64,000 bases of DNA. Origin: Azonexus sp. (GTDB taxonomy: Bacteria > Pseudomonadota > Gammaproteobacteria > Burkholderiales > Rhodocyclaceae). The stretch's first letter is position 1; each line of letters starts with the position of its first letter. The stretch spans positions 1 to 64,000 of the forward strand of contig NZ_JAKLLH010000004.1 in the NCBI RefSeq assembly GCF_023150235.1, read 5' to 3'. The notes beneath the pieces were generated by a model. It did not search any database, had not been told where the DNA came from, and worked only from the letters and a program-made list of their open reading frames with translations. Below, piece after piece: positions 4,256 to 56,775 of this stretch. Position numbers and translations under genes: made by a program.

Positions 4256-4299
4256 CACGGTCGACCGGCAAAAAAGCCGTTTTTCGCCGGTCGACCGTG
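4256..4299. repeat. Paired CACGGTCGACC palindrome (hairpin)
   Basis: Two inverted copies of the dispersed palindrome. The arms CACGGTCGACCGGC and GCCGGTCGACCGTG are exact reverse complements of 14 bp around a 16-base A/T-rich loop that itself holds A- and T-runs. Each arm also contains the self-complementary GGTCGACC. This is the cleanest example of the paired form. It lies between the Uma2 gene and the next gene and may act as a terminator or a protein-binding site. Confidence 0.8.
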
Positions 4300-4426
4300 A
4301 AAGTGGTCGGGGTTTCCTGCTGATCCGGTGACGGTGCCTGGCGAAGTACTGACGCCTTGGCTTGCTTAAATGATTGGCATGCATCTTGCGTCGGCTGGGC
4401 ATGAGGTCAATGCGCTGAGGTCAGTC

Positions 4427-5077
4427 ATGCAGGTTTTACGCTCAACCACGTTGTATGCCGCCAATAGTCCGCTGTCGGGTGCCCGGAATGCCAGCGCAAT
4501 CACGCCGGCAAATCCTGCCCAGGCGGCGGCAAACTCGTCGTCCATCGTTTCGATCTCGCCGGCGGCCCGCGCTTTGGCCGAGCAAGGCGCGGCGGCAGGC
4601 CAGGCCGGGCCAGCGGCGACGGACGATCCGGTGGAAAACTACCGCCTGCCGAATTGGTATGCCGGTTTGTTCGGCGAAAATCTGCAACCCATCGATGGCG
4701 CGGCCATTGACCGGGAAATGCAGAGCTATTGGGGGCTGGCCGAGCAGTTGTCGGCCGATGGGCAGCTTGATCAAGCCGATCAGGCCCGACTCGCCGCCCT
4801 CGACCGGCCGGCCAGCCGGGCCTGGGATGCCGGCAACGAGTTCCGCGCGCAATTCCGGCAGGAACTCGATGAATTCCAGAAGATTTTTGATTCGGCCTGG
4901 TCCGGGGCTTTGCGCGAGCAAGGCGTCAATACGCATCAGGACTATGTCGAAAAAGTCCTGCGGGCGCCCGGCGATAATTCGGCGCTACGCAACAGCGTGG
5001 TCGAAAAGACACTGGCCAATCCGCGGGCGCTTGCGCTGATCGATCAACTGGGCTGGAAAAGGCCGGCATTGGCATGA
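4427..5077 (+). CDS. Hypothetical protein, 216 residues
   Basis: I do not recognise this protein. The chosen start gives MQVLRSTTLYAANSPLSG; an upstream in-frame ATG 57 bases earlier is possible. The first 60 residues are rich in Ala, Ser, Asn and Pro and look disordered (with SISPAARALAEQ), as in proteins with a flexible N-terminus; there is no signal peptide. The rest is acidic and predicted mostly helical, with DQADQARLAALDRPASRAW and an ELDEFQKIFDSAW segment. No transmembrane segment and no catalytic motif are visible. It is bracketed by two paired palindromic hairpins, which makes it a self-contained unit. Codon use is like the host's, so it is probably a real, narrowly distributed gene. 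Confidence 0.6.
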   Translation: MQVLRSTTLYAANSPLSGARNASAITPANPAQAAANSSSIVSISPAARALAEQGAAAGQAGPAATDDPVENYRLPNWYAGLFGENLQPIDGAAIDREMQSYWGLAEQLSADGQLDQADQARLAALDRPASRAWDAGNEFRAQFRQELDEFQKIFDSAWSGALREQGVNTHQDYVEKVLRAPGDNSALRNSVVEKTLANPRALALIDQLGWKRPALA

Positions 5078-5099
5078 GTGCGCGGCAACCGGCTGCGTC

Positions 5100-5143
5100 C
5101 ACGGTCTACCCGTAAAAACCGGCTTTTTCCCCGGTCGACCGTG
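5100..5143. repeat. Paired palindrome, left arm decayed
   Basis: The left arm reads CACGGTCTACC (one base off the consensus) and the right arm GGTCGACCGTG, separated by about 22 bases that include AAAAACCGGCTTTTT, itself a small inverted repeat. The spacing and loop layout match the pair at 4256. It lies 20 bp after the unknown 216-residue gene and could terminate it. Confidence 0.75.
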
Positions 5144-5323
5144 ATGGCGCGGTAGCGTGGCGGCTCTCGTTGCTCGCTGCCGTGCCCGAGGCGGACGGCC
5201 GGATCGGCAGGCGGTTCGGCCGTCGGGGATTTCATCTCCCGGACAGCGCAATTTGTCGACATTTCCGTTGGCAAAGACGGTTAGAATCCCGCCTTTGTTT
5301 TTTGTCGACCGCAGCAGGGAAAA

Positions 5324-5890
5324 ATGGCTATCAAATCAGACAAGTGGATACGGCGCATGGCGGAGGAGCACGGCATGATCGAACCCTTCGAGCCGGAGCT
5401 GATTCGCGAGGCGAATGGCCAGAAGATCGTCTCCTACGGTACTTCCAGCTACGGCTACGATATTCGCTGCGCCCGCGAATTCAAGGTGTTCACCAATATC
5501 AATTCGACGGTGGTCGATCCCAAGGCCTTCGATCCCAAGTCCTTTGTCGAAATCGAGTCCGACGTCTGCATCATTCCGCCGAACTCGTTCGCGCTGGCGC
5601 GCACCGTCGAATATTTCCGCATTCCGCGCTCGGTGCTGACCGTCTGTCTCGGCAAGTCGACCTATGCCCGCTGCGGCATCATCGTCAACGTCACCCCCTT
5701 CGAGCCGGAGTGGGAAGGCTACGTGACGCTGGAGTTCTCCAACACCACCCCGCTGCCGGCCAAGATCTACGCCGGCGAGGGCTGCGCCCAGGTGTTGTTC
5801 TTCGAATCCGACGAAGTTTGCGAAACCTCGTACAAGGATCGCGGCGGCAAGTACCAGGGTCAGGTCGGCGTGACCTTGCCCAAGATCTGA
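5324..5890 (+). CDS. dcd: dCTP deaminase
   Basis: Cytosolic enzyme that converts dCTP to dUTP and ammonia, feeding dUMP for thymidylate synthase, which is also in this window. The 188 residues match the usual length of the homotrimeric family. Hallmarks include [14 protein letters not shown] near residue 40, [30 protein letters not shown] (residues about 106-135, containing the nucleotide-binding and catalytic S-x-x-x-R and E residues) and [17 protein letters not shown] lies 5 bases before the ATG. A strong hairpin with a T-run follows the stop, so it is likely monocistronic. Confidence 0.96.
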
Positions 5891-5921
5891 CCTCAGTTTG
5901 TAACGAACCTGTCTTACTGTT

Positions 5922-5950
5922 CGACCCGCTGCGGCGGGTCGCCGCTTTTT
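5922..5950 (+). terminator. Rho-independent terminator after dcd
   Basis: Arms CGACCCGC and GCGGGTCG pair around a 4-base loop; GCCGC and a run of five T follow. It lies about 30 bp after the dcd stop and just before the decarboxylase ribosome site, so the decarboxylase probably receives only readthrough. Confidence 0.7.
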
Positions 5951-5963
5951 GAGAGAACCAGCC

Positions 5964-8192: not shown

Positions 8193-8219
8193 TCCCGGCG
8201 CCGGCGCCAGGAGACGACG

Positions 8220-8408
8220 ATGAAAGAATGGTATCTGAAGGAAGCCAAGGCGATGCTCGACGTGATGGTCAAGTCGCAGCCAGCATTGATCCATCCGCAC
8301 CACGCTTCGGAAGATACCGGGCGCTTGCTGACCGATTTCTGTGCCGCTTTCGTGCGCCAGTACGCCAGTCACCTGGAAGCGCTGGACCAGGAGCAGTGTC
8401 CCGGCTGA
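8220..8408 (+). CDS. Small conserved-looking hypothetical protein
   Basis: The 62 residues begin MKEWYLKEAKAMLDVM and contain a His/Cys scatter but no known motif. The ribosome site AGGAG lies 6 bases before the ATG, and the gene sits 27 bp behind the decarboxylase and ahead of a strong terminator, so co-expression is likely. Predicted all-helical and soluble. The function is unknown; the position suggests an accessory to the decarboxylase. Confidence 0.65.
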   Translation: MKEWYLKEAKAMLDVMVKSQPALIHPHHASEDTGRLLTDFCAAFVRQYASHLEALDQEQCPG

Positions 8409-8434
8409 GTCGCCGGCAGGCATGGGCAGGATCG

Positions 8435-9031: not shown

Positions 9032-9041
9032 CGCGCAGGGG

Positions 9042-9554
9042 TCAGCGACGGCGGCGGTAGCTGACGAAGTGGCAAGCGGGCGGGGTGCCACGGTCGACCG
9101 TGCGTTTTTGCACAATTTCCCAGTCGACCGTGGAAATCTCGGGAAACCACGCATCGCCCTCGGGGGCCAGTTCGACTTCGGTGACTTCGAGGCGGTCGGC
9201 CAGCGCCAGCGCCTGGCGGTAGATCTGTTCGCCGCCGATCACGAAGATTGGTCCGGGGGCGGCGGCATCCACGGTCGACAGCCGGGCCAGGGCATTTTCC
9301 AGCGAGTCGGCGAGTTCGGCGCCGGGGGCGGCGTAGTCTGGCTGGCGGCTGATCACGATGTTGCGCCGGCCGGGCAGCGGGCGAAAGCGCGGCGGCAGCG
9401 ATTCCCAGGTCTTGCGCCCCATGATCACCGGCCGGCCGCTGGTCATCGCCTTGAAGTGGGCCATGTCCTCGGGGATGTGCCAGAGCAGCTGGTTGTCCTG
9501 GCCGATGACGCGGTTTTGCGCGACGGCGGCGATGATGACGATTTCCGGTTTCAT
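9042..9554 (-). CDS. folA: Dihydrofolate reductase
   Basis: NADPH-dependent reduction of dihydrofolate to tetrahydrofolate, regenerating the cofactor oxidised by the thymidylate synthase encoded upstream in the same operon. The 170 residues show the DHFR order: IIAAVAQNRVIGQDNQLLWHIPEDMAHFK with the catalytic acid in PEDM, GRPVIMGRKTWESLP, RRNIVISRQ, and FVIGGEQIYRQAL. The start overlaps the pgi stop by 4 bp (ATGA). The last 30 residues are encoded by a paired palindromic repeat (STVDWEIVQKRTVDRG), ending in the expected HFVSYRRR, so the repeat lies inside the coding region without breaking the frame. Confidence 0.96.
   Translation of the reverse strand: MKPEIVIIAAVAQNRVIGQDNQLLWHIPEDMAHFKAMTSGRPVIMGRKTWESLPPRFRPLPGRRNIVISRQPDYAAPGAELADSLENALARLSTVDAAAPGPIFVIGGEQIYRQALALADRLEVTEVELAPEGDAWFPEISTVDWEIVQKRTVDRGTPPACHFVSYRRRR
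9088..9133. repeat. Paired palindrome inside folA
   Basis: Left copy CACGGTCGACCGTG is a perfect 14-bp palindrome; the right copy is GTCGACCGTGG. The outer arms CCACGGTCGAC and GTCGACCGTGG are exact reverse complements. It is translated in folA as STVDWEIVQKRTVDRG. Confidence 0.85.
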
Positions 9555-11995: not shown

Positions 11996-12589
11996 TTAGT
12001 TCGGGCGGGCAGGGCGCTGCGCGCTCTTGGGGCGGAAGGCCTGGATCACCGCGGCGTCGGTTTCGCAGTAGGGGCCGCCGATCAGGTCGAGGCAGTAGGG
12101 CACGGCGGCGAAGATGCCGACGTGACGCACCGTGCCATCGGCGTGGCGCAGGCCTTCCAGGGTTTCCTGGATCGCCTTGGGCTGGCCGGGCAGGTTGATG
12201 ATCAGCGCTTGCTTGCGGATCACCGCGACCTGGCGCGAGAGGATCGCGGTCGGCACGAAGTTGAGGCTGATCCGCCGCATTTCCTCGCCGAAGCCGGGCA
12301 TTTCCTTGTCGGCCACCGCCAGCGTCGCTTCCGGGGTCACGTCGCGCAATGCCGGGCCGGTGCCACCGGTGGTCAGCACCAGATGGCATTGTTCACGGTC
12401 GACCAGCTCGATCAGGGTATTTTCAATCTCCGCCTGCTCGTCGGCGATCAGTCGGGTGACGCCGGTCCAGGGCGAGGCCAGCGCCCGGCTCAGCCAGTCC
12501 TGCAACGCGGGAATGCCCTTGTCTTCATAGACGCCGGTCGAAGCGCGGTCGCTGATCGAGACCAGCCCGATTTTCAGCGTCTCACTCAT
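11996..12589 (-). CDS. mog: Molybdopterin adenylyltransferase
   Basis: Activates molybdopterin with ATP before molybdenum insertion in molybdenum cofactor synthesis. The 197 residues show the MoaB/Mog fold: KIGLVSISDRASTGVYEDKGIPAL at the N-terminus, LVLTTGGTGPALRDVTPEAT (the T-T-G-G-T-G motif) and a conserved NLPGQPKAIQETL. The extended C-terminus (IGGPYCETDAAVIQAFRPK) favours Mog over the shorter MoaB. The start is fixed by MSETLKIG, and the ATG overlaps the darP stop by 8 bp. Confidence 0.92.
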   Translation of the reverse strand: MSETLKIGLVSISDRASTGVYEDKGIPALQDWLSRALASPWTGVTRLIADEQAEIENTLIELVDREQCHLVLTTGGTGPALRDVTPEATLAVADKEMPGFGEEMRRISLNFVPTAILSRQVAVIRKQALIINLPGQPKAIQETLEGLRHADGTVRHVGIFAAVPYCLDLIGGPYCETDAAVIQAFRPKSAQRPARPN

Positions 12590-13248: not shown

Positions 13249-14601
13249 ATGTCCACCGATTCCACCGCTTTTTCCTATGCTCATGCCACCTTGCAGCAAT
13301 TGGCCGAGGATGTTCTCAAGCACGCCCGCAACCAGGGGGCGAGTGCCTGCGAGGTCGATGTCTCGGAAGGTTTCGGGCAATCGGTGACGGTGCGCTGCGA
13401 CGAGGTCGAAACCATCGAGTTCAACCGCGACAAGGGCATCGGCGTCACCGTCTATGCCGGTCAGCGCAAGGGTTACGCCAGCACCTCCGACTTTTCGCCG
13501 CAGGCCCTGCGCGATACCGTCGATGCCGCGCTCAAGATCGCCCGCTTCACCGCCGAAGATCCGTGCGCCGGCCTGGCCGACGCGGCCTTGCTGGCCCGCG
13601 ATTGCCCGGAGCTGGATTTGCATCATCCCTGGGCGTTGACCGTGGAAGCGGCGATCGACATCGCCCGCCGCTGCGAGCAGGCGGCTTTCGCGGCCAGCCC
13701 GCTGATCGAGAATTCGGAAGGCGCATCGGTGTCGACGCAGCAGGCGCATTTCATTTCCGCCAACAGCCTCGGCTTCATGGGCGGCTATCCGAGCTCGCGG
13801 CACTACGTCTCGTGCTCGGTGATCGCCGGCGAGGAAGACGGCGAAGGCATGCAGCGCGACGACTGGTACACCACCAACCGCAATCCGGCCCTGCTCGACG
13901 CTGCCGATTCGGTCGGCCGGCGCGCCGCCGAGCGGGCGACCGCGCGGCTCGGGGCGAAGAAGGTCAAGACCGGCGAATACCCGGTACTGTTCGATGCCAC
14001 GCTGGCCGGCGGCCTGCTCGGCAGCCTGGTCCATGCCGCCAGCGGCGGCGCCTTGTACCGTAAGGCTTCGTTCCTGGTCGGCCAGCTCGGGCAGAAGATC
14101 ATGCCCGACTTCGTCCGTATCGACGAACGGCCGCACCTGCGCGGCGCGCTCGGTTCGGCCGCATTCGACAGCGACGGCGTTGCCACTCGCGACCGCGCGG
14201 TCGTCGAGGGTGGCGTGCTGCAGGGCTATTTCCTCTCCGCCTATTCGGCGCGCAAGCTTGGCATGCAGACCACCGGCAACGCCGGCGGCGCCTACAACCT
14301 GCTGCTGCAGCCGGGCGAGCTTGATTTCGCCGGCCTGCTCAAGCAGATGGGGCGTGGCCTGCTGGTCACCGAACTGCTCGGCCACGGGATCAATTACGTG
14401 ACCGGCGATTATTCGCGTGGCGCCGCCGGCTTCTGGGTCGAGGACGGCGAAATCGTGTATCCGGTTGAGGAAATCACGATTGCCGGCAATCTGAAAAACA
14501 TGTTCGCCGGCATCGCCGCGGTCGGGAACGATGTGCTGGTCCGCGGCTCGAAGCAGTCGGGTTCGATCCTGCTCGAGCGGATGACGGTCGCCGGCGAGTG
14601 A
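13249..14601 (+). CDS. pmbA: Metalloprotease PmbA (TldE)
   Basis: Partner of TldD in a cytosolic protease that matures peptides such as microcin B17 and degrades unfolded peptides. The 450 residues have the TldD/PmbA N-terminal domain (ACEVDVSEGFGQSVTVR, DKGIGVTVYAGQRKGYAS), the middle AAFAASPLIENSEGASVS, and the C-terminal GSLVHAASGGALYRKASFLVG and GNAGGAYNLLLQPG segments. PmbA lacks the metal-binding HExxxH-type motif of TldD, as expected here. tldD is not in the window. It is divergent from darP, the classic arrangement. Confidence 0.95.
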   Translation: MSTDSTAFSYAHATLQQLAEDVLKHARNQGASACEVDVSEGFGQSVTVRCDEVETIEFNRDKGIGVTVYAGQRKGYASTSDFSPQALRDTVDAALKIARFTAEDPCAGLADAALLARDCPELDLHHPWALTVEAAIDIARRCEQAAFAASPLIENSEGASVSTQQAHFISANSLGFMGGYPSSRHYVSCSVIAGEEDGEGMQRDDWYTTNRNPALLDAADSVGRRAAERATARLGAKKVKTGEYPVLFDATLAGGLLGSLVHAASGGALYRKASFLVGQLGQKIMPDFVRIDERPHLRGALGSAAFDSDGVATRDRAVVEGGVLQGYFLSAYSARKLGMQTTGNAGGAYNLLLQPGELDFAGLLKQMGRGLLVTELLGHGINYVTGDYSRGAAGFWVEDGEIVYPVEEITIAGNLKNMFAGIAAVGNDVLVRGSKQSGSILLERMTVAGE

Positions 14602-15816: not shown

Positions 15817-15853
15817 GCAAGCCGTGCCGTCAGGCCCATTGCTCATGGGCTTT

Positions 15854-15864
15854 CACGGTCGACC
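15854..15864. repeat. Single palindrome copy CACGGTCGACC
   Basis: One copy of the dispersed repeat immediately upstream of the terminator hairpin that follows the TRAP binding-protein gene. No second arm is obvious, so this is a solo copy. Confidence 0.7.
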
Positions 15865-15876
15865 GGCGGTAAAGTA

Positions 15877-15907
15877 AAAAAAGCCTGGATGATTTCCGGG
15901 CTTTTTT
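15877..15907 (+). terminator. Terminator after the TRAP binding-protein gene
   Basis: AAAAAAGCC and GGCTTTTTT pair, with inner GG/CC pairs around a short loop and a terminal T-run. The A-run on the other side would allow minus-strand use, but the Dps-like gene ends 84 bp further right. Confidence 0.8.
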
Positions 15908-16707: not shown

Positions 16708-19305
<2,598 letters not shown>

Positions 19306-22721: not shown

Positions 22722-23387
22722 ATGCAGGAAATCCCTAGTCAAATCACCCGCCTGTGCCTGATTCGTCACGGCGAAACCGAATGGAACGCCGAGCGGCGGA
22801 TCCAGGGGCAGATCGACATCGGCCTCAATCCGGCCGGCCTGGCCCAGGCTCGTGCGGCGGGACGCTGCTTGCGCGGAGCCGGCATTGTCGCCCTCTACAG
22901 CAGCGACCTCAAGCGTGCCGCGACGACGGCCGATGAAATTGCCGCCGAACTCGGGTTGACCGTGATCCGCTGTCCCGACCTGCGCGAGCGTTGCTACGGC
23001 ATCTTCCAGGGGCTGACTTATGTCGAGGCAGCGGCTTGCCATCCCGACGGTTACGCCGCATTCGAGGGGCGCAACGCGGACTATGCCTTCGAGAACGGCG
23101 AAAGCCTGAAGGCGATGCACCTGCGGGTGACCGCCAGGCTGCGTGCGATTGCCGCCGCGCATGCTGGGGCGACGGTCGCCGTGGTGGTGCATGGCGGCGT
23201 GCTCGATATCGTCAATCGCTTTGTGCGCGGTACGCCGCTGGAACGGCCGCGCGACTTCCTGATTCCGAATGCGGGCCTGAACTGGATTTCCACGGTCGAC
23301 GGCGAAAAGGGAGAGAAATGGGTCATCGATTCCTGGGGAGAAACAGAGCATCTCGAAGCGGGTGCGCTGGACGAACTTCCTTCGTGA
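22722..23387 (+). CDS. Histidine phosphatase (phosphoglycerate mutase-like)
   Basis: The 221 residues contain the signature LIRHGETEWNAERRIQGQIDIGLNPAGLAQA with the catalytic RHG histidine, the second acidic residue in LRERCYGIFQGLTY and the second histidine in VVVHGGVLDIV. This is the cobC/GpmB-like cofactor-independent-of-metal branch, and actual substrates vary (phosphosugars, alpha-ribazole phosphate, others). I chose MQEIPSQITRLC; an upstream ATG adds 9 residues. WISTVDGEKGEKW contains a partial palindrome (CACGGTCGAC). It precedes glyA by 39 bp. Confidence 0.88.
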   Translation: MQEIPSQITRLCLIRHGETEWNAERRIQGQIDIGLNPAGLAQARAAGRCLRGAGIVALYSSDLKRAATTADEIAAELGLTVIRCPDLRERCYGIFQGLTYVEAAACHPDGYAAFEGRNADYAFENGESLKAMHLRVTARLRAIAAAHAGATVAVVVHGGVLDIVNRFVRGTPLERPRDFLIPNAGLNWISTVDGEKGEKWVIDSWGETEHLEAGALDELPS

Positions 23388-25219: not shown

Positions 25220-26310
25220 TGGATTTCTCCGCCGAAGACTTTCGGCTGATGGCGCACGCGCTGCAGCTCGCCGAGCGCGGCCTGTGGACGACGTCGCCCA
25301 ATCCGCGCGTCGGCTGCGTGCTGGCGCGGGGCGGTGAAATCGTCGGTGAGGGCTGGCACGAACGCGCCGGCGAGCCGCATGCCGAGGTTCATGCCCTGCG
25401 TCAGGCCGGTGAGCGGGCGCGCGGGGCGACCGCCTACGTCACTCTCGAACCGTGCAGCCACCACGGGCGCACACCGCCTTGCGCCGAAGCCTTGATCGCG
25501 GCCGGGGTGAGCCGGGTGGTGGCGGCGATGCAGGACCCGAACCCGCTGGTCGCCGGGCGCGGCCTGGCGCTGCTAGGGACCGCCGGAATTCCGACCGCCT
25601 GCGGGCTGCTTGAAAGCGAGGCGCGGGAACTGAATATCGGCTTCGTTTCGCGCATGGAACGCGGTCGACCGTGGTTGCGCTTGAAAACCGCCGCCAGCCT
25701 TGATGGCAAGACTGCGCTCAACAATGGCCTCAGCCAGTGGATCACCGGGCCGGAGGCGCGGCGCGACGGGCATCGCTGGCGGGCGCGCGCCTGCGCCATT
25801 TTGACCGGAATCGGCACGGTGCGCGACGACGATCCACGGCTCGATGTGCGCGAGGTCGAAACCACGCGCCAGCCCTTGCGGGTGATTGTCGATAGCCGCC
25901 TGGAAACGCCACCGCAGGCGCGCATCCTGCAGGGGGGCGGGCCGGTCCTGATCGCGGCTGCGGTCGACTCTCCGGAGCGGCGCAAAATGCTGACCGCCGC
26001 CGGCGCCGAAGTGCTGCTCCTGCCCAATCCGGCGGGCAAGGTTGAACTGTCTGCTTTGCTGGCCGAGCTCGGGCGGCGCGGGATTAACGAAGTGCACGCC
26101 GAGGCCGGCTGGAAGCTCAACGGCTCTTTGCTGCGCGAGGGGCTGGTCGACGAATTGTTGCTCTATCTTGCCCCCTGCCTGCTCGGCCATCTCGCTGCTG
26201 GCTTGTTCAACCTGCCGGAACTGACGGCGCTGGACGGCAAGCGCGAAGTGCGGATCGGCGACCTGCGCCAGGTCGGCAACGATATCCGGATCGTCGCCCG
26301 TTTGCGTTAA
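25219..26310 (+). CDS. ribD: Riboflavin biosynthesis deaminase/reductase RibD
   Basis: Bifunctional enzyme performing the deaminase and reductase steps after GTP cyclohydrolase II in riboflavin synthesis. The N-terminal deaminase domain (about 1-145) has the zinc motif HAEVHALRQAG and the PCSHHGRTPPCAEALI pair of cysteines; the C-terminal reductase domain starts at RPWLRLKTAASLDGKTAL and includes ILTGIGTVRDDDPRL and the NADPH-binding NEVHAEAGWKLNGSLL. The 363 residues are the usual length. A GGTCGACC palindrome falls on the conserved GRPW, which is probably coincidental. A perfect 22-bp palindrome follows 18 bp after the stop. Confidence 0.97.
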   Translation: MDFSAEDFRLMAHALQLAERGLWTTSPNPRVGCVLARGGEIVGEGWHERAGEPHAEVHALRQAGERARGATAYVTLEPCSHHGRTPPCAEALIAAGVSRVVAAMQDPNPLVAGRGLALLGTAGIPTACGLLESEARELNIGFVSRMERGRPWLRLKTAASLDGKTALNNGLSQWITGPEARRDGHRWRARACAILTGIGTVRDDDPRLDVREVETTRQPLRVIVDSRLETPPQARILQGGGPVLIAAAVDSPERRKMLTAAGAEVLLLPNPAGKVELSALLAELGRRGINEVHAEAGWKLNGSLLREGLVDELLLYLAPCLLGHLAAGLFNLPELTALDGKREVRIGDLRQVGNDIRIVARLR

Positions 26311-26328
26311 CTTGGCGGTTTTCGCCGA

Positions 26329-26350
26329 TTTTCACGGTCGACCGTGAAAA
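26329..26350. repeat. Perfect 22-bp solo palindrome
   Basis: TTTTCACGGTC joined to its exact reverse complement GACCGTGAAAA; this is the best match to the consensus of the dispersed repeat. It lies between the convergent ribD and moeB stops, where it could end transcription in both directions or be a binding site. Confidence 0.85.
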
Positions 26351-26389
26351 ACAAGAATTTTCCCGGGAAGGACTGGCTTTGTTGCCGTC

Positions 26390-29116: not shown

Positions 29117-30492
29117 TTCAAACTGGCCCATTTCATCGGGTCTACGGGTTGCCCCTGGTGGCGAATCTCGAAGTATAAACCGGATTCCGGATTGCCCCCG
29201 CTGTTGCCCACGCTGGCCACGGTTTCGCCGCCGCGAACGCTCTGGCCGACCTGTTTGAGCAGGGATTCGTTATTGCCATAAATCGAAAGATAGCCATCGC
29301 CATGGTCGACGATGAGCAGGTTGCCAAAACCGCGCATCCAGTCGGCAAAGACGACGCGGCCATTGGCCACGGCCTTGACTTCGCTGCCGCTGGCGGTACG
29401 GATGAAAAGGCCGCGCCAGGTGCCGCCGCCTTCGCGCGGGGTGCCGAAACGTCCGGCGACGCTACCGCGCACCGGGAGCCGGAGACTGCCTTTTTGTCGC
29501 GCAAAGCTGCCATCGCTGGGAGCAGGTTCGTAACGGTTCTCGGCTTCGACCGTCTGGCTGCGAGGAGGTTCGTGGGCATTGCGCGTCGGCATTTCCTCGC
29601 CGCGCTTTTTCTGGCGAGCCGCTTCGGCGGCAGCCCGGCGATTGGCTTCCGCCGTCTTTGCGGCTTTCGCCGCTTCGGCTGCCCGTGCGGCCGCCTGGGC
29701 AGCCAGAATTCTGGCCAGGCGGTCGATGAGTTGCGACAGGCGTTTTTCGTTTTGCTGCAGGTTGCCGATTTCCTTGCGCTGTGCGCTGACCTTTTCGGAA
29801 ATTTGGGCGTAGATCGCCTTGCGCTGCTCTCTCTGTTTTTGCAACTCGGCATGGCGTTTCTGTTGCTCGGCCTCGATCTCGGCCATTTCGCCGGCTCGCG
29901 CCCTCGTTTCGCTGGCCAGGGCCTTTTTGCGGGCCAGATTTGCCTTCAGTTCGCCCAGCAATTCGCTGCGTGCCAGCGCTATGGCCGAGAAGTAATACAG
30001 GTCGCGCGCCATCTGGTTGGGGTCTTCGCCGTTGAGCAGCGATTGCAGGGTATCCGGGTGGCCACGCAAGTACTGGCGATGAAGCAGGCGTTCGAGCTGT
30101 CCCTGTTGCGCATTCAGGGTATTCCCGAGTTCAGTGGATTGCTGTTCGAGATTTTTCAGCTTTTTCTGCAGTTGACCGCGTTGCTCGCCCAGTTCATGTA
30201 CTTCGCGCTGCAGGCGCGAAATGTGACGCTCGGATTCGCGCAGTCGGTCACCCGCATCGGCCTTGCTCTCCTCGCTGGCGGATAATTCCTTGCGCAGATT
30301 ATCGATGCGACCGCGCAACTCGCCCAAGTCAGCCTGTTTTTCGGCAATTTCGGGGGCTGCGGTCTTGCCATTGCTGGCTCGCGCTTCTCCGGTCGTCGCC
30401 AGGAACAGGCAGAGCGCGCAGCCCAGCGCGACGGAAAGGCGGGCGCGGCGAGCGGTCTGGGGGCGGTAGCTGCTGGGCGGCGGCGCGCGCAC
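29113..30492 (-). CDS. envC: Murein hydrolase activator EnvC
   Basis: Periplasmic coiled-coil protein that activates amidases at the division septum. The 459 residues have a signal peptide (LSVALGCALCLFLATTGEARA), a long coiled coil (about residues 45-260, rich in Lys, Glu, Gln and Leu), a variable Ala-rich linker and a C-terminal LytM/M23 domain (GRFGTPREGGGTWRGLFIRTASGSEVKAVANGRVVFADWMRGFGNLLIVDHGDGYLSIYGN). The catalytic metal site is degenerate, as expected for EnvC rather than an active M23 peptidase. The GTG start has GAGG 9 bases upstream. Confidence 0.93.
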   Translation of the reverse strand: MRAPPPSSYRPQTARRARLSVALGCALCLFLATTGEARASNGKTAAPEIAEKQADLGELRGRIDNLRKELSASEESKADAGDRLRESERHISRLQREVHELGEQRGQLQKKLKNLEQQSTELGNTLNAQQGQLERLLHRQYLRGHPDTLQSLLNGEDPNQMARDLYYFSAIALARSELLGELKANLARKKALASETRARAGEMAEIEAEQQKRHAELQKQREQRKAIYAQISEKVSAQRKEIGNLQQNEKRLSQLIDRLARILAAQAAARAAEAAKAAKTAEANRRAAAEAARQKKRGEEMPTRNAHEPPRSQTVEAENRYEPAPSDGSFARQKGSLRLPVRGSVAGRFGTPREGGGTWRGLFIRTASGSEVKAVANGRVVFADWMRGFGNLLIVDHGDGYLSIYGNNESLLKQVGQSVRGGETVASVGNSGGNPESGLYFEIRHQGQPVDPMKWASLK

Positions 30493-32549: not shown

Positions 32550-33535
32550 AAATTTCCGTGCTTGGCGCCGGCGCTTGGGGAACCGCCTTGGCGCTGGCCT
32601 TTTCCGGTCGACACGCGGTGACTTTATGGACCCGTGAGGCCGAGGTGGCCGAAGATTTACGGTCGACCCGCGAAAATCGACGTTTTTTGCCTGGCTATCG
32701 CCTGCCCGAGGCGCTTGCCGTCGCTACCGATTTTGCCGCTGCCGCGGGCGATGCCGAATTGCTCCTGCTGGCAACGCCGGTGGCTGGTTTGCGTCCGACG
32801 CTGCAGCGCCTGCACGACGAATCGCTGGTTCGCCCCCTGCTCTGGGTCTGCAAGGGTTTTGAGAGTGGCAGTGGCCTTCTGCCGCACCAAGTAGTGGCTT
32901 CCGTTCTCGGCAAAGGCGTGCTGTCCGGCGTTCTGTCCGGACCGAGCTTTGCCCAGGAGGTGGCGGCGGCTCGCCCGACAGCAGTTGCATTGGCGGCCAA
33001 TTGTGCCGATTTTGCCCGTCTTGCCGCCCGTGAATTGCATGGCCAGCGCCTGCGCGTTTATGCCAATGACGATTTGGTTGGCGTCGAGGTCGGTGCCGCG
33101 GTGAAGAATGTACTGGCGATTGCCGCCGGTGTCTGCGACGGCCTCGGCTTGGGTTACAACGCGCGTGCCGCCCTGCTTACCCGTGGCCTGGCCGAAATTG
33201 CCCGCCTGGGCGAGGCACTCGGCGCGCGGCGCGAGACCTTCATGGGCCTGGCGGGCATGGGCGACTTGATTCTGACATGTACTGGCGATTTGTCGCGCAA
33301 CCGGCGGGTTGGCCTCGCGCTTGCCGAGGGTAAATCGCTGCCGCAGATTCTCGATGAACTCGGACATGTTGCCGAGGGGGTGCATACCGCCCGCGAGGTG
33401 GTCGCACTGGCGGAAAAGCTGGCGGTCGATATGCCGATTTCGCAGGCCGTGGCCGCGCTGCTCGATGCCCGTTGTAGTGCAGGCGAAGTGCTCGAATCGC
33501 TGATGGCGCGTGATCCGCGCGAGGAAGTCGCCTGA
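32546..33535 (+). CDS. gpsA: Glycerol-3-phosphate dehydrogenase (NAD(P)+)
   Basis: Makes sn-glycerol-3-phosphate from dihydroxyacetone phosphate for phospholipid synthesis. The 329 residues begin [19 protein letters not shown] (Rossmann GxGxWG), then [62 protein letters not shown] with the catalytic lysine region, and [26 protein letters not shown]. The sequence near residue 42 ([12 protein letters not shown]) is encoded across a decayed palindrome pair. Start overlaps the SH3 gene. Confidence 0.97.
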
Positions 33536-34589: not shown

Positions 34590-35366
34590 TTAGAGCACGG
34601 AAGTGCGATCCTGCAGCATTTTACGGTCGTCACGCAGGGCGCGGGCGACGACTGCGAGCCGGACTTCGGTGGCGCCGTGCAGGCGCAGGATGCGGGCTGC
34701 TTCGCGCAGGGTCGCACCGGTCGTCATCACATCGTCGACCAATAGTAGCCGTTGTCCGGACAGTTTGCCGCAGCTCTCGAAGGCATCCCGGACATTGGCT
34801 TGGCGCCGGCGGTAGGGCTGGCCGGCTTGTGGGGGTGTCGGGCGGCTGCGCTGCAGACTGTCACGGTCGACCGGCAGATTGAGGCAATTTCCGAGGGCCT
34901 CGGCAATCAGGACCGATTGGTTGAAGCCGCGTTCCGCCAGTCGTTGCGGGTGCAAAGGCAGGGGAACGATGCTGTCGATGTCTTTTGCATCAATCGTGGT
35001 GGCGAGGATTTCTCCAAACCAGGTGCCGAGCGGCAGGCAATGCCGGTATTTCAGGGCCTGGATCAGGCGGTCGGCGGGAAAGGCGTAGCGCCAGAGCGCC
35101 TGAGTACGGGAAAAGGCCGGTGGCCGGCGCAGGCAGCGACCGCAGGTGCTGCCCAGCGTACTGACCTCGCCGCAACAGGGGCAGGCATGGTGAGCGGAAA
35201 AGAGGGGGAGATCAGCGGCGCAGGCTGGACAGATCGGAGCGCTGCCGCTGTTTTCGCCGCAGAGCAGGCAGCACGAAGCGAGCAGTCCGCTCAGATTGGT
35301 CGGGAGGCAGTGGCTGCGGGAAAGCGGCCGCTGGATGAGGGGAAGGATGGTGTGCAGGAACGTCAA
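34590..35366 (-). CDS. ComF/GntX-family phosphoribosyltransferase-like protein
   Basis: The 258 residues have an N-terminal zinc-finger-like part with CxxC pairs (CLLCGE, CPAC, CPCC, CGRC) followed by a type I PRTase-like domain with the PRPP loop [21 protein letters not shown] and [24 protein letters not shown]. ComF is needed for DNA uptake in Gram-positives; GntX stands near bioH in E. coli. Here it is divergent from bioB-bioC. A palindrome copy at 34862-34872 is read as part of LPVDRDSL. Confidence 0.9.
34862..34872. repeat. Palindrome copy inside the comF-like gene
   Basis: CACGGTCGACC on the plus strand, translated on the coding strand as PVDRDSL within the phosphoribosyltransferase domain. 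No partner arm lies within 60 bp. Confidence 0.55.
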
Positions 35367-36463: not shown

Positions 36464-37371
36464 GCGGCCAGCCCGCTACCGCCGCGTCCGGCGGCGGCTT
36501 TGTCGATCGCGACCAGGTTGCCCGCCGTTTCGGTCGGGCGGCCGCGTCTTATCGCGAGCACGATTTCCTGGTTCGGGAAATCGACCGGCGCATGTACGAA
36601 CGGCTCGATTACGTACGTATCGAGCCGCGCCGCATGCTCGATCTCGGCTGCAGCGCCGGAGGTAGTTTCCCCGTGCTGACCGCGCGTTATCCGCAGGCGG
36701 AATGGCTGGGGCTGGACCTGGCGCCAGCGATGCTGGCACAAATCGATGACCGGCGTAGCGGCTGGCAACGCCTGCTGGGGTTGGGAAAAAGCTGGCAGCC
36801 GCTGAAGCTGGCCGCCGATGCTGCACAATTGCCGCTGGCGGCACGCTCGGTCGATCTGGTCTGGTCCAATCTGCTGCTGCACTGGCTCGACGATCCGCTA
36901 CCGGCCTTGGCCGAGGCACAGCGCGTGCTCCAAGTCGGCGGTCTGCTGATGTTTTCGACCCTGGGGCCGGATACTTTGCACGAACTGCGGACTGCCTTTG
37001 CCGACGGTTACGCACACACTCAGCGCTTTGTCGATATGCACGACCTCGGCGACATGCTGGTCGCCTGCGGTTTTGCCGACCCGGTGATGGATATGGAAGT
37101 GATCCGGCTAACCTACGACGACTTCGACCGAATGCTGGCCGAACTGCGCGGTGCCGGCTCCGCCTGCGCGCTGAAAATGCGCCGCCACGGCCTGACCGGG
37201 CGTGGGCACTGGCAGTCGGTGCGTGCGGCGTACGAGCGTCTGCGCGAAAACGGCAAACTACCGGCAAGCTTTGAGGTGGTCTACGGCCATGCCTGGAAAG
37301 TTGCGCCGAAGCAGACCGGCGATGGTCGCGCGGTGGTCAACCTCGATGGTCTTAAGCGAAAAATCGGCTGA
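36460..37371 (+). CDS. bioC: Malonyl-ACP O-methyltransferase BioC
   Basis: SAM-dependent methyltransferase that primes biotin synthesis by methylating malonyl-ACP. The 303 residues: [27 protein letters not shown] (the typical BioC N-terminus), the SAM-binding [40 protein letters not shown] and [20 protein letters not shown]. The start is a TTG whose last two bases are the first bases of the bioB stop (TTGA), implying translational coupling. The downstream 100 bp carry a decayed palindrome pair. Confidence 0.93.
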
Positions 37372-37377
37372 AAACAA

Positions 37378-37434
37378 GGTTGACCGTGGTAATGCCGTTT
37401 GCGTGATTTTGTTCGCGGCTTTGCCGCGGTCAAC
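37378..37434. repeat. Diverged paired palindrome after bioC
   Basis: GGTTGACCGTGG and CCGCGGTCAAC are inverted arms with one mismatch, carrying TTGAC where the consensus has TCGAC. The A/T-rich spacer of about 34 bases has the same style as the other pairs. I read it as an old, decayed member. Confidence 0.55.
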
Positions 37435-37472
37435 TGGTCAAACCGGCTTTTTCGGCGTCGAAAGAGAGGGGG

Positions 37473-40754: not shown

Positions 40755-40821
40755 AACGCCACGGTCTGGCGTCGGGAGGTGAAGGATATCCCGGCGCCGC
40801 CTGTCGCCGAATTTTCAAGAG

Positions 40822-41463
40822 TTACCGGAGTCGACCGTGGCAGAGGGGCAGTTCCAGCACCGAACGCAGCTTGAGGTCGACGAATGGCGACTGTCGCGTA
40901 CCGCGATCGATCCAGACCGTTTTCATCCCCATCTTCTTGGCGGTGACCAGGTTTTCCAGGCTGTCCTCGACCAGGATGCAGCGGCGTGGGTCCAGTCTTT
41001 CGCAGCGCAGGAGCCGCCGGAAGGCTGCTGGAGCCGGTTTTGGCTGAAAATCTAGCTGTTCAATGGCGTAAATGCACTTGAAATGGCGATCCAGTCCTGT
41101 CAGGTCGAGAATGCTGCAAGCGTATTCCTGCGGCCCGTTGGTGAACAAAATCTTGTCGCCGGGCAGGCGTTTGAGCGCATGCAGCAAAGGCTTTTCAAAG
41201 ACGATCATTCGCTTCAGATCGGGAAAGCAGTGGGTTTCGCGCAGGAAGTGCCGGGGGTCGGTAGCGTGATGTCGAACCAGTCCGAGCAGGGTGGCGCCGT
41301 AGTGTTGCCAGTAGTCGATCCGCAGTCGGTCGGCGGCGGCGCGCTCAAGTCCGAGATGGCGTTCGATGTATTCCCGCATCGAACGGTTGATGTGCGGAAA
41401 AATCCGCGCCGATGCATTGTGCAGGGTGTTGTCGAGATCGAACAGCCAAGTAGGATGCCGCAT
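40822..41463 (-). CDS. HAD-family pyrimidine 5'-nucleotidase
   Basis: The 213 residues have motif I WLFDLDNTLHNA (nucleophile Asp), motif II ILFTNGPQ, motif III with PKPAPAAFRRLL and motif IV CILVEDSLENL. The layout is the Sdt1/YjjG group that hydrolyses pyrimidine 5'-nucleotides. The chosen ATG follows the argB stop by 70 bp. The last codons (CHGRLR) are made by a palindrome half (GTCGACCGTGG). argB next to such a gene is common in betaproteobacteria. Confidence 0.85.
   Translation of the reverse strand: MRHPTWLFDLDNTLHNASARIFPHINRSMREYIERHLGLERAAADRLRIDYWQHYGATLLGLVRHHATDPRHFLRETHCFPDLKRMIVFEKPLLHALKRLPGDKILFTNGPQEYACSILDLTGLDRHFKCIYAIEQLDFQPKPAPAAFRRLLRCERLDPRRCILVEDSLENLVTAKKMGMKTVWIDRGTRQSPFVDLKLRSVLELPLCHGRLR
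40830..40840. repeat. Palindrome half at the end of the HAD gene
   Basis: GTCGACCGTGG, matching the right arm of the consensus, overlaps the last codons of the nucleotidase gene. No left arm is seen within 60 bp. Confidence 0.5.
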
Positions 41464-43660: not shown

Positions 43661-44089
43661 TCAATCCTGGATGCGGCGGAAACTGTTGTAATGATCGTCG
43701 GTGTAATAGAAGACCGAGGGCGGTGCGCCACCGGTCACGAGGCGGCGGGCGCCGCGGCTGCGTTCGCCCGGCGTCTTGACCGTGTATTCGCGGTAAAAGC
43801 CGCGCGCCGCCTTGGGCAGGCGCTTCTCGAAGTTGCGAAACTCGATCCCGTCGCGGTCGTACGGAAAGGGGCCACCGCGCAAGATCAGCGCGTGCGTGTC
43901 GCGGGCTTCGCGCGGCAATTCGGCGAGTGCCACGGTCGACCCGGAAAAAAGCGAATTTCCGCCTTTTTCGCTGTCGACCGTGAGCGAACCGCCGTGGCCC
44001 GCATGGTCGCGGGCGACAGCGGCGCTGGGTAGCCACTGCGCCGCCAGCGCCAGCCAGAAAGCCAGGAGCAGACGAATGACGGCACTCAT
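43661..44089 (-). CDS. Secreted guanyl-specific ribonuclease (barnase/RNase Sa type)
   Basis: The 142 residues start with a signal peptide (MSAVIRLLLAFWLALAAQWLPSAAVA) and end in a microbial ribonuclease domain: GGPFPYDRDGIEFRNFEKRLP, the catalytic glutamate in FYREYTVKTPG, arginine in SRGARRLV and histidine in YTDDHYNSFRRI. The 24 residues between signal peptide and domain (GSLTVDSEKGGNSLFSGSTVAL) are encoded by a paired palindrome, so an element has entered or shaped the linker. With the adjacent inhibitor it forms a barnase-barstar pair. The target could be competing bacteria or scavenged RNA. Confidence 0.9.
   Translation of the reverse strand: MSAVIRLLLAFWLALAAQWLPSAAVARDHAGHGGSLTVDSEKGGNSLFSGSTVALAELPREARDTHALILRGGPFPYDRDGIEFRNFEKRLPKAARGFYREYTVKTPGERSRGARRLVTGGAPPSVFYYTDDHYNSFRRIQD
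43931..43982. repeat. Paired palindrome inside the ribonuclease gene
   Basis: CACGGTCGACC and GTCGACCGTG, inverted, with an A/T-rich spacer of about 31 bases; outer arms CACGGTCGAC and GTCGACCGTG are exact. It encodes the linker between signal peptide and ribonuclease domain. Confidence 0.8.
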
Positions 44090-46897: not shown

Positions 46898-47755
46898 CTA
46901 GAGCAGGCCGAGGTAGTTGCGATTGATCGTTTCGCCCCAGAGCAGCGCGATGACCCCGGCTGCGGCAAGGTAGGGGCCGAAGGGGATCGGTACATTGCGC
47001 CCATGGCGGGCGAAGGCGATCAGGGCAATGCCAACTCCGGCGCCGACCAGCGACGAGAGCAGGATGATGGTGGGCAGCATGCTCCAACCCAGCCAGGCGC
47101 CGAGAGCCGCGAGCAACTTGAAATCGCCGTAACCCATGCCTTCCTTGCCGGTGGCGAGCTTGAACAGCCAATACACGCTCCACAGCGAGAGGTAGCCGGC
47201 GATGGTTCCGATCACCGCTGCTTCGAGAGAGACGAAATGCCCCTGCAGATTGAAAACAAGGCCCAGCCACAGCAGTGGCAGGGTGATGCTGTCGGGCAGA
47301 AGCTGTGTATCGAGATCGATCATGGTCAAGGCGATCAGCGACCAGACCAGCAGCAAGGCGCCGGCAGCCTGCCAAGTGGCACCGAAATGCCAGACAAGCA
47401 CTGCCGAGAGCACGCCGGTAAGCAGTTCGATCAGCGGGTAGCGCACCGATATGGCGGTGCCGCAAGCCGAACAGCGGCCGCGTAGCAGGAGGTAGCTGAG
47501 CACCGGAATGTTCTCATGCGCACGGATGGGGTGCGCACAGACCGGACAGCGCGAGCGGGGACGGGCAAGCGACAGCTTTTCCACGGTCGACGCGGCATCC
47601 GGGCAATTTTGTCCGAGCAATTCAGCGCATTGTTCACGCCACTCGTGATCCATCATCTTCGGCAGGCGATGAATCACGACATTCAGGAAACTGCCGACAC
47701 AGAGGCCGAGCAGCGCGGCAGCGGCGATGAGTCCGCCCAAGGTTTCCGGCATCAT
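46898..47755 (-). CDS. pilD: Prepilin peptidase/N-methyltransferase PilD
   Basis: Inner-membrane aspartic peptidase that cleaves and methylates type IV prepilins. The 285 residues have an N-terminal helix, a cytoplasmic zinc domain with CPVC and CSAC pairs, and multiple membrane helices with the two catalytic aspartates in LTMIDLDTQLLPD and GMGYGDFKLLAALGAWLG. The start overlaps the pilC stop by ATGA. A partial palindrome (CACGGTCGACG) encodes ASTVEKLS. Confidence 0.96.
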   Translation of the reverse strand: MMPETLGGLIAAAALLGLCVGSFLNVVIHRLPKMMDHEWREQCAELLGQNCPDAASTVEKLSLARPRSRCPVCAHPIRAHENIPVLSYLLLRGRCSACGTAISVRYPLIELLTGVLSAVLVWHFGATWQAAGALLLVWSLIALTMIDLDTQLLPDSITLPLLWLGLVFNLQGHFVSLEAAVIGTIAGYLSLWSVYWLFKLATGKEGMGYGDFKLLAALGAWLGWSMLPTIILLSSLVGAGVGIALIAFARHGRNVPIPFGPYLAAAGVIALLWGETINRNYLGLL

Positions 47756-50714: not shown

Positions 50715-50811
50715 GAATGCCGGGGCGGTTTTGCGTCGTTGGAATGTCGGCGGATGATGCTACGCAGCGTTGGCTTTGTAAAGCAGCCCGCCTTGCCCGG
50801 AAAAAGGGGCG

Positions 50812-52923: not shown

Positions 52924-52952
52924 TCGCAAATTCTACTAGAAGCCCAAGTCAC

Positions 52953-54308: not shown

Positions 54309-54340
54309 TTTCACCCGCGCCGGTTTTTGTCGTTTTTACC

Positions 54341-54351
54341 GGTCGACCGTG
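54341..54351. repeat. Single palindrome copy after ffh
   Basis: GGTCGACCGTG preceded by TTTTTACC, in the same A/T-rich style as other copies. It lies between ffh and its terminator. Confidence 0.65.
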
Positions 54352-54390
54352 TCGTTCGCGGTTGTCGGTTTACGCAAGTGGGACTGCAAG

Positions 54391-54428
54391 AAAAAATAGC
54401 CGCCGGATTTTTCCCGCGGCTATTTTTT
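54391..54428. terminator. Bidirectional terminator between ffh and the transglycosylase gene
   Basis: AAAAAATAGCCGC and GCGGCTATTTTTT form a 13-bp perfect stem around a 12-base loop, with T-runs on both strands. It separates two convergent genes. Confidence 0.92.
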
Positions 54429-54445
54429 CTATCATCGAAGCCGAG

Positions 54446-55057
54446 TCAGCGGGTTTGGCCTGCGAGGCGCAACGGTGGCCGGTAGTCCCACTGGTTTTGC
54501 CAGGCGGCGCGCACCAGGTTCGGGTATTCCGGTTTGCCCAGGCTGCCGTTGTAGCGGCCCAGGGCGCGGTAGAGGTCGCCTTTTTCCAGATCCAGGTAGT
54601 GACGGAGGATCGTGCACCCGTAACGCAGGTTGGTGCGCAAGTCGAACAGCGAATCCTCCGCTCGCCCGAGCAGCTTGAGCCAGAAGGGCATGACCTGCAT
54701 GTAACCACGGGCGCCGGCAGAAGACACTGCGTATTTGCGAAAGCCGGATTCGACCTGGATCAAGCCGAGCACTAGTTGCGGATCAAGCCCGGCACGGGTG
54801 GCCTCATAGTGCACGCTGCGTAGCAGGTCGAGCCGGTAGTTGCGGTCGGGGATCCGCTTTTCCAGGCGCGGCGACATCGTTGCCAGCCAGTCGGTCGCTT
54901 CGAGCGGGGTCTTGAACGAACTCACGGCTGGCCGACTGTCGGAAACTGCCTTGTGCAGGGCAGCCTGAACGCTGGCCGAGAGCGGTTCGTATTTCTGTGC
55001 GCCGGCCAGGGCGGCCGACGCACAGAGGTAAAACAGCGCGGCGATCAGGCCGCGCAC
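54446..55057 (-). CDS. Lytic transglycosylase (SLT domain)
   Basis: Periplasmic murein hydrolase of 203 residues: an N-terminal signal peptide ([17 protein letters not shown]) and an SLT domain with the catalytic glutamate in [30 protein letters not shown] and [25 protein letters not shown]. The GTG start has AAGGGA upstream and overlaps the proS stop by 13 bp, so the two are coupled. The family member (MltE-like or Slt-like) is not certain. Confidence 0.9.
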
Positions 55058-56775
55058 AGCTTCCCTTGCAGGAAGGCGAGGATTTCGCCTTGCGCGATCA
55101 TGGTGGCTTCAGCATCGCTGCGGCCCTTGTATTCGAGCTGACCTTCCTTGAGGCCGCGCTCGCCGATCACCACGCGATGCGGGATGCCGATCAGTTCCAT
55201 GTCGGCGAACATGACGCCGGGGCGCTCGTTGCGGTCGTCCAGGACAACATCAATGCCGGCTTGCTTGAGCTCAGCGTAAAGCTGGTCGGCGGCAGCCTTG
55301 ACGGCATCGCTCTTGAAATAGCCCATCGGCACGATGCTGACCGCGAACGGTGCAATCGAGGCCGGCAGGATGATGCCGCGCTCGTCGTTGCCCTGTTCGA
55401 TGGCGGCGCCGACGATGCGCGAGACGCCGATGCCGTAGCAGCCCATTTCCATGATCTGGCTCTTGCCGTTTTCGTCGAGGAAGGCACAGTTCAGCGCCTT
55501 GGCGTATTTGGTGCGCAACTGGAAGATGTGGCCGACTTCGATGCCGCGGCAGATCTCCAGCGTGCCCTTGCCGTCCGGCGACGGATCGCCGGCGACGACG
55601 TTGCGGATGTCGAACACCTCAGGCTCCGGCAGGTCGCGGCCGAAATTGACCCCGGTCAGGTGGAAGCCGGCTTCGTTGGCGCCGCAGACGAAGTCGCTCA
55701 TTGCAGCCACCGTGCGGTCGGCGAAAATTGCCACTTTTTCACGGTCGACCGCGACTGGACCAATAAATCCGGGAATGCAGCCGAGGTATTCCTGGATTTC
55801 GCTGTCGGAGGCAAAGCGGAAATTGCCGAGCGCGGCAATCTTGCCGGCCTTGATTTCGTTCAGTTCATGGTCGCCACGCAGCAGCAGCAGCGCGAACTTC
55901 TTGCCGCCGTCTTCCAGTTCGCTGACCACCGCGATCGATTTGACGATGTTTTGCAGGTCGACCGTGAGAAAAGCGGCGACATCGGCGCAGGCAGCCTTGC
56001 CCGGCGTGGCGACTTTGGTCATGGCTTGACCGGCGGCGGCACGCGGGGTGGTCGGGGCGACGGCTTCGGCCAGTTCGACGTTGGCGGCGTAATCGGAGTC
56101 GGCGCAGAAGGCGATGTCGTCTTCGCCCGAGTCGGCGAGGACGTGGAACTCGTGCGAGCCATCGCCGCCGATCGAGCCGGTGTCGGCCGCGACGGCGCGG
56201 AACTTGAGGCCGAGGCGGCTGAAGATGCGGCTGTAAGTGGCGTACATGTTGCCGTACTCGCGCACCAGGTCATCGAACGAGGTGTGGAAGGAGTAGCCGT
56301 CCTTCATCAGGAATTCGCGGCCGCGCATCACGCCAAAGCGGGGGCGGATTTCGTCGCGGAACTTGGTCTGGATTTGATAGAGGTGGAGCGGCAGCTGGCG
56401 ATAGCTCTTGACGTCGCGACGGACGATGTCGGTGATCACTTCCTCGTGCGTCGGGCCGATCACGAAATCGCGCTGGTGACGATCTTTGAAGCGCAGCAAC
56501 TCCGGGCCATAGGCCGGGCCGCGTCCGGATTCTTCCCACAGCTCGAAAGGTTGCACGGCCGGCATCAGCAGTTCCTGGGCGCCGGCGGCATTCATTTCTT
56601 CGCGGACGATGCCTTCGACCTTGCGCAGCACGCGCAAGCCGAGGGGCATCCAGGAGTAGATGCCGGCTGCCGAACGCTTGATATAGCCGGCACGCAGCAT
56701 CATTTTTTGGCTGATGACTTCAGCGTCGGCGGGAGCTTCCTTGAGGGTGGTGAAGAAAAACTGCGAGGTGCGCAT
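55045..56775 (-). CDS. proS: Prolyl-tRNA synthetase
   Basis: Bacterial-type class II synthetase of 576 residues: motif 1 ([38 protein letters not shown]), motif 2 ([32 protein letters not shown]), an editing insertion (about 225-400), motif 3 ([18 protein letters not shown]) and the anticodon-binding domain. Inside the editing region, [20 protein letters not shown] carries about three extra residues relative to E. coli and is encoded by a palindrome pair. A second copy encodes LTVDL. Confidence 0.97.
55711..55753. repeat. Decayed palindrome pair inside proS
   Basis: The intact copy CACGGTCGACC at 55740-55750 faces a decayed arm GTGCGGTCGGC about 25 bases away across an A/T-rich spacer. It is translated within the editing insertion and seems to add about three residues compared with E. 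coli ProS as I remember it. Confidence 0.55.
55956..55966. repeat. Second palindrome copy inside proS
   Basis: GGTCGACCGTG, translated on the coding strand as the LTVDL of [15 protein letters not shown] in the editing domain. Solo copy. Confidence 0.6.

Follow-up and report, generated by a model that had tools for sequence, protein, structure and literature searches.

The window analysed here comprises 64,000 nucleotides of Azonexus sp. (contig NZ_JAKLLH010000004.1) and carries, among others, genes for dihydrofolate reductase, a molybdopterin-binding-domain protein, RibD, a ribonuclease (PF00545) and an ffh-type (SRP54) protein. Scattered between and within its genes are copies of a short repeat built on the word CACGGTCGAC. 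The original prediction described, from the letters alone, a dispersed palindrome family with 17 copies and four half copies, all of which we located within a few bases (the copy given at 26329 really lies at 26333). The window has 17 copies of the palindrome GGTCGACC, compared with a mean of 1.47 and a maximum of 5 in 100 dinucleotide shuffles, and CACGGTCGACC with at most one mismatch gives 31 matches against 1.72 expected. CACGGTCGACCGTG is found at 187 places in the 3.42-Mb genome and its reversed pattern at none, and together these counts establish the family as real.

The composition of the repeat was studied in an alignment sample of 464 kb, consisting of the window and 20 stretches of the same genome chosen at listed palindromes; density and spacing in these 20 stretches are biased by that choice, and the whole-genome counts are unbiased. 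Exact CACGGTCGAC occurs 136 times in the sample, in 75 palindromic (mate with at most one mismatch), 27 intermediate and 34 one-sided copies. All 34 one-sided copies have A or T at positions +26 and +27 from the core start, 91% at +25 and 76% at +28, compared with a background A+T content of 37.6%; at the mirror positions the share is 50% (−13) and 29% (−14). A weaker rise lies directly upstream of the core (71% at −3). Two A/T segments are seen 3′ of the core, an optional one at +14 to +18 and a nearly invariant far tract at +24 to +28, and palindromic copies carry the tract at both sides together with inner tracts. Because the one-sided copies are asymmetric and the palindromic ones have the tract on both sides, the unit is directional, with a core of 10 bases, CACGGTCGAC-N15-A-tract read in one direction, with A allowed for G8 and T for C1, and a palindromic copy consists of two such units overlapping at GTCGAC. 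The palindrome itself is thus not the repeat unit, contrary to what had been proposed.

The TpA step is missing from 141 of 146 far-tract tetramers, whereas the background share of such tetramers among A/T tetramers is about 65%, and the tract is therefore a true A-tract. Its letters vary from AAAA in one copy to TTTT in the next. By arithmetic, 22 bases, or about two helical turns, separate the centres of core and tract. The window holds 32 directional elements (core with Y allowed at position 1, R at position 2 and N at position 8, plus tract; Table 1), where 0.08 would be expected, and moving the tract 10 bases further reduces the matches to 2. The broad form RCGGTCRAC-N15-WWWW occurs 1138 times in the whole genome (585 forward and 553 reverse), against 0 + 7 for the reversed control.

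Strictness of the core was assessed in 730,566 bases of the same genome, with the expectation taken from other offsets. Perfect cores with a tract number 146 against 4.9 expected, and single-mismatch cores 94 against 4.7, 73 of them at the two tolerated positions (52 G8>A, 21 C1>T). Double-mismatch cores with a tract fall to 51 against 28.7, and triple-mismatch cores show no excess (160 against 195.5). The consensus is unusually strict, as in the uptake signal sequences (USS) of Pasteurellaceae and the DNA uptake sequences (DUS) of Neisseriaceae. A k-mer/tract scan that presumed no core recovered CACGGTC in this genome.

Table 1. Core-plus-tract elements of the window, each pattern match being 28 bases long (G101, nearest relative; G030, a further relative).
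Element	Position	Strand	Context
element	4256–4283	+	inverted pair with 4272–4299, hairpin
element	4272–4299	-	other half of pair with 4256–4283
element, core GGTCTAC	5100–5127	+	inverted pair with 5116–5143
element	5116–5143	-	other half of pair with 5100–5127
element, palindromic core	9089–9116	+	within dihydrofolate reductase gene
element	9105–9132	-	within dihydrofolate reductase gene
one-sided element	9270–9297	+	within dihydrofolate reductase gene; kept in G101
one-sided element	12394–12421	+	within molybdopterin-binding-domain gene; kept in G101 and G030
one-sided element, GGTCAAC core	13617–13644	-	kept in G101
intergenic element	15854–15881	+	flanked by convergent genes
one-sided element	19207–19234	-	within gene
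one-sided element, GGTCAAC core	22937–22964	-	lost in G101
one-sided element	23291–23318	+	within gene; 12 bases between core and tract absent in eight more distant relatives
element	25646–25673	-	within ribD; overlaps 25660–25687
element, core CGCGGTCGAC	25660–25687	+	within ribD
element, core TGCGGTCGAC	25959–25986	+	within ribD; tract lost in G101
palindromic intergenic copy, minus unit	26319–26346	-	flanked by convergent genes
palindromic intergenic copy, plus unit	26333–26360	+	flanked by convergent genes
one-sided element (CGCGGTCAAC)	30153–30180	-	identical in G101
element (TACGGTCGAC)	32658–32685	+	kept in G101
one-sided element	34862–34889	+	within gene; kept in G101
element, GGTCAAC core	37361–37388	-	close to gene end
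intergenic element (CGCGGTCAAC)	37425–37452	+	
one-sided element	40812–40839	-	at called gene end
element	43931–43958	+	inverted pair with 43955–43982, inside called ribonuclease (PF00545) frame; hairpin
element	43955–43982	-	other half of pair with 43931–43958; kept in G101; pair 43931–43982 nearly unchanged in G101
one-sided element	47582–47609	+	within gene; kept in G101
intergenic element	54324–54351	-	downstream of ffh-type (SRP54) gene; convergent neighbours
element	55726–55753	-	overlaps 55740–55767; lost in G101
element	55740–55767	+	within gene; kept in G101
one-sided element	55939–55966	-	within gene; kept in G101
one-sided element, GGTCAAC core	61971–61998	+	within gene

The broad form was also counted in 76 genomes of the genus (Dechloromonas/Azonexus), where the reversed control reached at most 21. 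Forty of them are motif-rich, with 380–1673 copies, 36 have 5–137, and none lies between. Four of the motif-poor genomes (G045, G110, G115 and G005) have 101–137 copies, clearly over the control, which may be relics. In 283 genomes of other genera (of 296 family genomes) the count does not exceed 21; one of these, G146, has 11 + 10 matches against 1 + 2 in the control, which may point to a faint form of the word in another genus. The named relatives of the window's RibD protein are Dechloromonas sp. SSD3 (83%), Dechloromonas sp. CZR5, Azonexus sp. and other Rhodocyclaceae, and the genomes of the first two hold 520 and 17 copies, respectively. On a tree of 30 RibD genes, in which 17 of the 27 inner branches are unresolved, the motif label changes 4 times, compared with 9.6 in shuffles.

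The k-mer/tract scan found ACGGTC in the nearest relative, G101, and, with the offset unchanged, related cores in G018, G030, G031, G042 and G102; nothing comparable was found in 240 kb of G100 or in G046, for which only 40 kb were scanned. With CGGTC.AC fixed by the search and the commonest bases given, several of which are only 40–60% strong, the profile is TTTTCACGGTCGAC in our genome and G101, TCACGGTCGAC in G030, TC(G/A)CGGTC(G/A)AC in G018, TGC(C/T)GCGGTC(G/A)AC in G031, TGCTGCGGTCAACCGGAAAA in G042 and AGCGGTCGAC in G102. Core dialects thus differ among the seven genomes profiled, with the inner part constant and the tract in the same place. It should be noted that the scan of G030 (stretches L027–L036 and L095–L096) was dominated by an unrelated repeat (TAGGCAG, GGATAGG, CGTCACT; about 49 copies with a fixed-distance tract), perhaps a clustered array.

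Comparison of window sites with the orthologous stretches of nine relatives bears on how the copies arose. At 25664 in ribD all nine relatives align without gaps, and in most of them the core shows substitutions; at 12394 five align ungapped and four with single-base gaps. For several intergenic sites no alignment with the relatives' orthologous stretches could be obtained. Between our genome and G101, 21 of the 43 sites in 124 kb lie within aligned sequence (84.7% identity), and 17 of these 21 keep the motif. The 9-base core is identical in 17 of 21, against 29.8% of random aligned 9-mers (binomial 2e-6, the 21 including one overlapping pair), and two of the 21 are gapped within the element. 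Where sites can be compared, the copies look substitution-born, and the nearest relative has kept most of them.

Judging from this anatomy, the repeats are probably the DNA-uptake signal of a new lineage, the third such signal and an independently evolved one. The available text of PMC12616744 calls Neisseriaceae and Pasteurellaceae the sole families known with such uptake specificity; the repeat family studied here lies outside both and matches, at the level of sequence, the traits of an uptake signal. We hold with somewhat less assurance, though still in its favour, a fuller version: that Rhodocyclaceae have a third independent code for self-DNA uptake, with at least four core dialects in one genus, which many species lost or never gained, and which would have converged on the Haemophilus design, with A-tracts one and two helical turns beyond the core and GCGG in some of the dialects, since entry into the pore physically needs a bendable site. 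During natural transformation the element would be the docking word for a surface receptor linked to the type IV pilus. The receptor, probably a minor pilin, would grip the core, and easier bending at the A-tract would allow the DNA to enter the outer-membrane pore as a kink. The cell would then prefer DNA of its own kind, and as imported fragments recombine, the word would slowly become more frequent in the genome; where inverted pairs lie at gene ends, they may serve a second purpose as transcription terminators. Among the titles listed in the literature searches (subscription journals mostly uncovered), none names an uptake word in Rhodocyclaceae, Dechloromonas, Azonexus or Burkholderiales, and the matches to the core letters concern, by title, unrelated subjects.

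Competence and type IV pilus genes are present, namely ComEC, HHH_3 (ComEA-type), DprA and a minor-pilin cluster, equally so in motif-poor species. ComEC was found in 71 of the 76 genus genomes and in all 51 classed as good, the set to which the following counts refer. HHH_3 proteins and a ComP_DUS-family pilin occur in 51 of 51 (the latter in none of 14 control genomes), DprA in 50 and FimT-type (GspH/FimT) pilins in 49; the two genomes without a FimT-type match, G044 and G110, are motif-poor. In the available literature ComP is given as the DUS receptor of Neisseriaceae. The ComP_DUS pilin of our genome lies among other pilin-like frames and one frame of 1171 residues taken, by eye, for PilY1. 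At 30 ComP_DUS loci and in two stretches of our genome, the net charge of the encoded pilins showed no evident pattern by eye, and none of the candidate receptor pilins tracks motif presence in the good genomes. As a separate observation, the ComEC matches of two genomes are split into pieces about 33 kb apart (G043 C1 2218607–2251879 and G002 C33 109525–144033), as if by an insertion near the start of comEC, or as if the short piece were a chance match.

Several results weigh against an uptake signal. The competence genes fail as a discriminator, ComEC, HHH_3, DprA, the ComP_DUS pilin and FimT being about equally common in motif-poor and motif-rich genomes, and the sole good genome that misses DprA, G018, is motif-rich (1321 copies). 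The ComP_DUS match of our genome scores 40.7 bits (cut-off 27.3), and the minor-pilin cluster around it looks ordinary. Four of the 21 aligned sites are lost in G101; eight relatives lack 12 bases between core and tract at 23291, and the alignments of 9270 to distant relatives are gappy, so clean substitution does not hold for every site. The evenness of spacing is modest: the coefficient of variation of the intervals is 0.79 against 0.97 ± 0.10 for random placement, and 3.6% of simulations are as low. Finally, the titles and abstract starts searched contained nothing on natural transformation of Dechloromonas or Azonexus.

The main rival, which we regard as unlikely, places recognition inside the cell: a nucleoid-associated or chromosome-organising protein would bind the repeats, reading the core and wrapping or bending the A-tract, and the dialects would follow changes in its DNA-binding domain. 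A DNA-bending protein would also read a core with phased A-tracts, and it would suit the many sites on both strands of every larger contig sampled as well as the species-wise gain and loss. However, the elements thin out in low-GC DNA, a trend opposite to that of H-NS-like silencers: density climbs from 0.42 per 10 kb at 50–55% GC to 4.42 above 66%, and in two-kb bins there are 5 sites in 33 bins below 58% GC and 46 sites in 52 bins above 66%. In thirteen stretches longer than 16 kb and chosen regardless of the motif, the density per 10 kb ranges from 2.0 to 5.5 sites. Sites of intermediate affinity are, moreover, nearly absent, the excess falling from 141 perfect cores to 89 with one mismatch and 22 with two, a scarcity that the available text of PMC1626085 calls unlike ordinary regulatory binding sites.

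Placement relative to genes bears on two further alternatives. Genes were called with our own codon-based script, not a standard caller, in 444 kb; stretch L006 (contig C1, 20001–40000) was left out here and in the k-mer/tract scan because of its odd coding content. Of the 126 directional hits, intergenic DNA, which makes up 10.3% of the sequence, holds 43 of the 68 palindromic-type and 9 of the 58 one-sided ones, and the remaining 25 and 49 lie inside genes, so the early observation that copies occur both between and within genes is borne out. One-sided elements are about equally common on the two strands (17 to 15 on one contig, 7 to 7 on another). Of the 33 merged intergenic sites, 17 are convergent, 14 tandem and 2 divergent.

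Selection at gene ends for transcription terminators or mRNA 3′-end signals would account for the 31 convergent and tandem sites. The paired copies do form hairpins, as the original prediction had it: the RNA of 4250–4310, covering the pair 4256–4299, folds at −34.7 kcal/mol (z −5.2), and that of 43925–43990 has z −4.9; 5094–5150 is weaker (z −2.5), and the hairpin of 15850–15905 (z −3.4) is due to neighbouring sequence. Against this explanation, which we consider very improbable, stand the 49 of 58 one-sided elements within genes, the design of the single element, which has no terminator hairpin, and the order of the close core pairs (within 70 bases), only 6 of 15 facing inward, with 7 direct and 2 outward-facing. 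Operator sites of a global transcription regulator would agree with the palindromic core at 187 places, but divergent genes flank only 2 of the 33 intergenic sites, though this class has an equal amount of sequence, and the one-sided form is common; the chance of this explanation is slimmer again.

As slim is the chance of a mobile repeat of the REP (repetitive extragenic palindromic) or MITE (miniature inverted-repeat transposable element) type, spread by a transposase. Hairpin pairs are present, and the genome has two Y1_Tnp genes of the RAYT (REP-associated tyrosine transposase) type, the kind of cognate protein that had been suggested. No link of either to the repeat was found: the 3.3-kb loci around them, with 1.5 kb of flank on each side, contain no GGTCGACC, and GTCGAC occurs singly next to one of the two. 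The flanks of the copies are not copies of each other, and orthologous sites in core-less relatives mostly align with no missing insert; the in-gene sites already contradict this type. Least probable of all are recognition sites linked to a methyltransferase or restriction system, or a Thr-Val-Asp codon bias, which would explain the contained GTCGAC and the many in-gene copies in ACG GTC GAC phase but leave the fixed-distance A-tract, the intergenic excess and the absence from other genera of the family unexplained.

Other features of the sampled sequence are as follows. Rfam gave no match at the repeats and two small RNAs elsewhere in the window above the gathering score, anti-hemB (RF02837, 39574–39660, minus strand) and a Betaproteobacteria toxic small RNA (RF02278, 59479–59542, plus strand), and a tRNA scan was empty. 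Positions 1–4000, of low GC content (53.7%), carry a long minus-strand frame (321–2936) and a Uma2-family gene (3589–4167) and no element, in keeping with acquired DNA. Stretch L006 has a called coding share of only 38%, against 82–98% in other stretches, and is perhaps an island of foreign codon usage.

If the repeats are indeed an uptake signal, this third case, in a genus with 76 genomes of which 36 are motif-poor, would offer natural replicates for problems beyond the reach of the two old lineages: how a word is gained and lost, whether the mechanics of uptake call for A-tracts, by which pilin the word is read, and to what extent it keeps species genetically apart. Word-tagged constructs should raise transformation, which would ease genetics in these environmental bacteria.

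The original prediction likened the family to the REP, DUS or HIP type, and only the DUS-like part of this comparison is retained. The REP, HIP1 and promoter-regulator readings fit poorly. REP and bacterial interspersed mosaic elements with RAYT transposases likewise look palindromic, form hairpins at gene ends and reach hundreds of copies; here the flanks are not copied, orthologues show no clear insertion and we found no transposase link. HIP1 of cyanobacteria is an over-represented palindromic octamer without conserved flanks and finds no support here, where the unit is asymmetric and carries a spaced A-tract.

With the DUS of Neisseriaceae the repeats share a betaproteobacterial host, genome-wide distribution and dialects with a constant inner part (PMC12616744, available text). 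DUS differ in being a continuous word of other sequence without flanking A/T motifs, as far as the available texts of PMC1626085 and PMC12616744 go, and the repeats are not of that type, their core being different and their tract required; no search for the DUS word itself was made.

The USS of Pasteurellaceae are closer. According to the available text of PMC1626085, they have a 9-base core followed by two AT-rich 3′ segments at about single-turn spacing, with A's first and T's last, are mutation-born, have an unusually strong consensus and fall into two subclade types; that of PMC12616744 places AT regions about two turns downstream and notes that the dialects retain an inner core, GCGG in USS. 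Compared with Haemophilus influenzae AAGTGCGGT, our elements likewise have a directional core of about 9–10 bases, two 3′ A/T segments about one turn apart and with the same order of A's and T's, a high copy number on both strands within and between genes, an apparent origin by mutation, a strict consensus and subclade types. They differ in the core itself, (A/G)CGGTC(G/A)AC, which is neither AAGTGCGGT nor ACAAGCGGT, in the betaproteobacterial host, in the nearly invariant far tract with an optional near one, and in the ability of the cores to overlap as palindromes. The commonest bases in G031, G042 and G102 nevertheless give GCGG, the inner core of USS.

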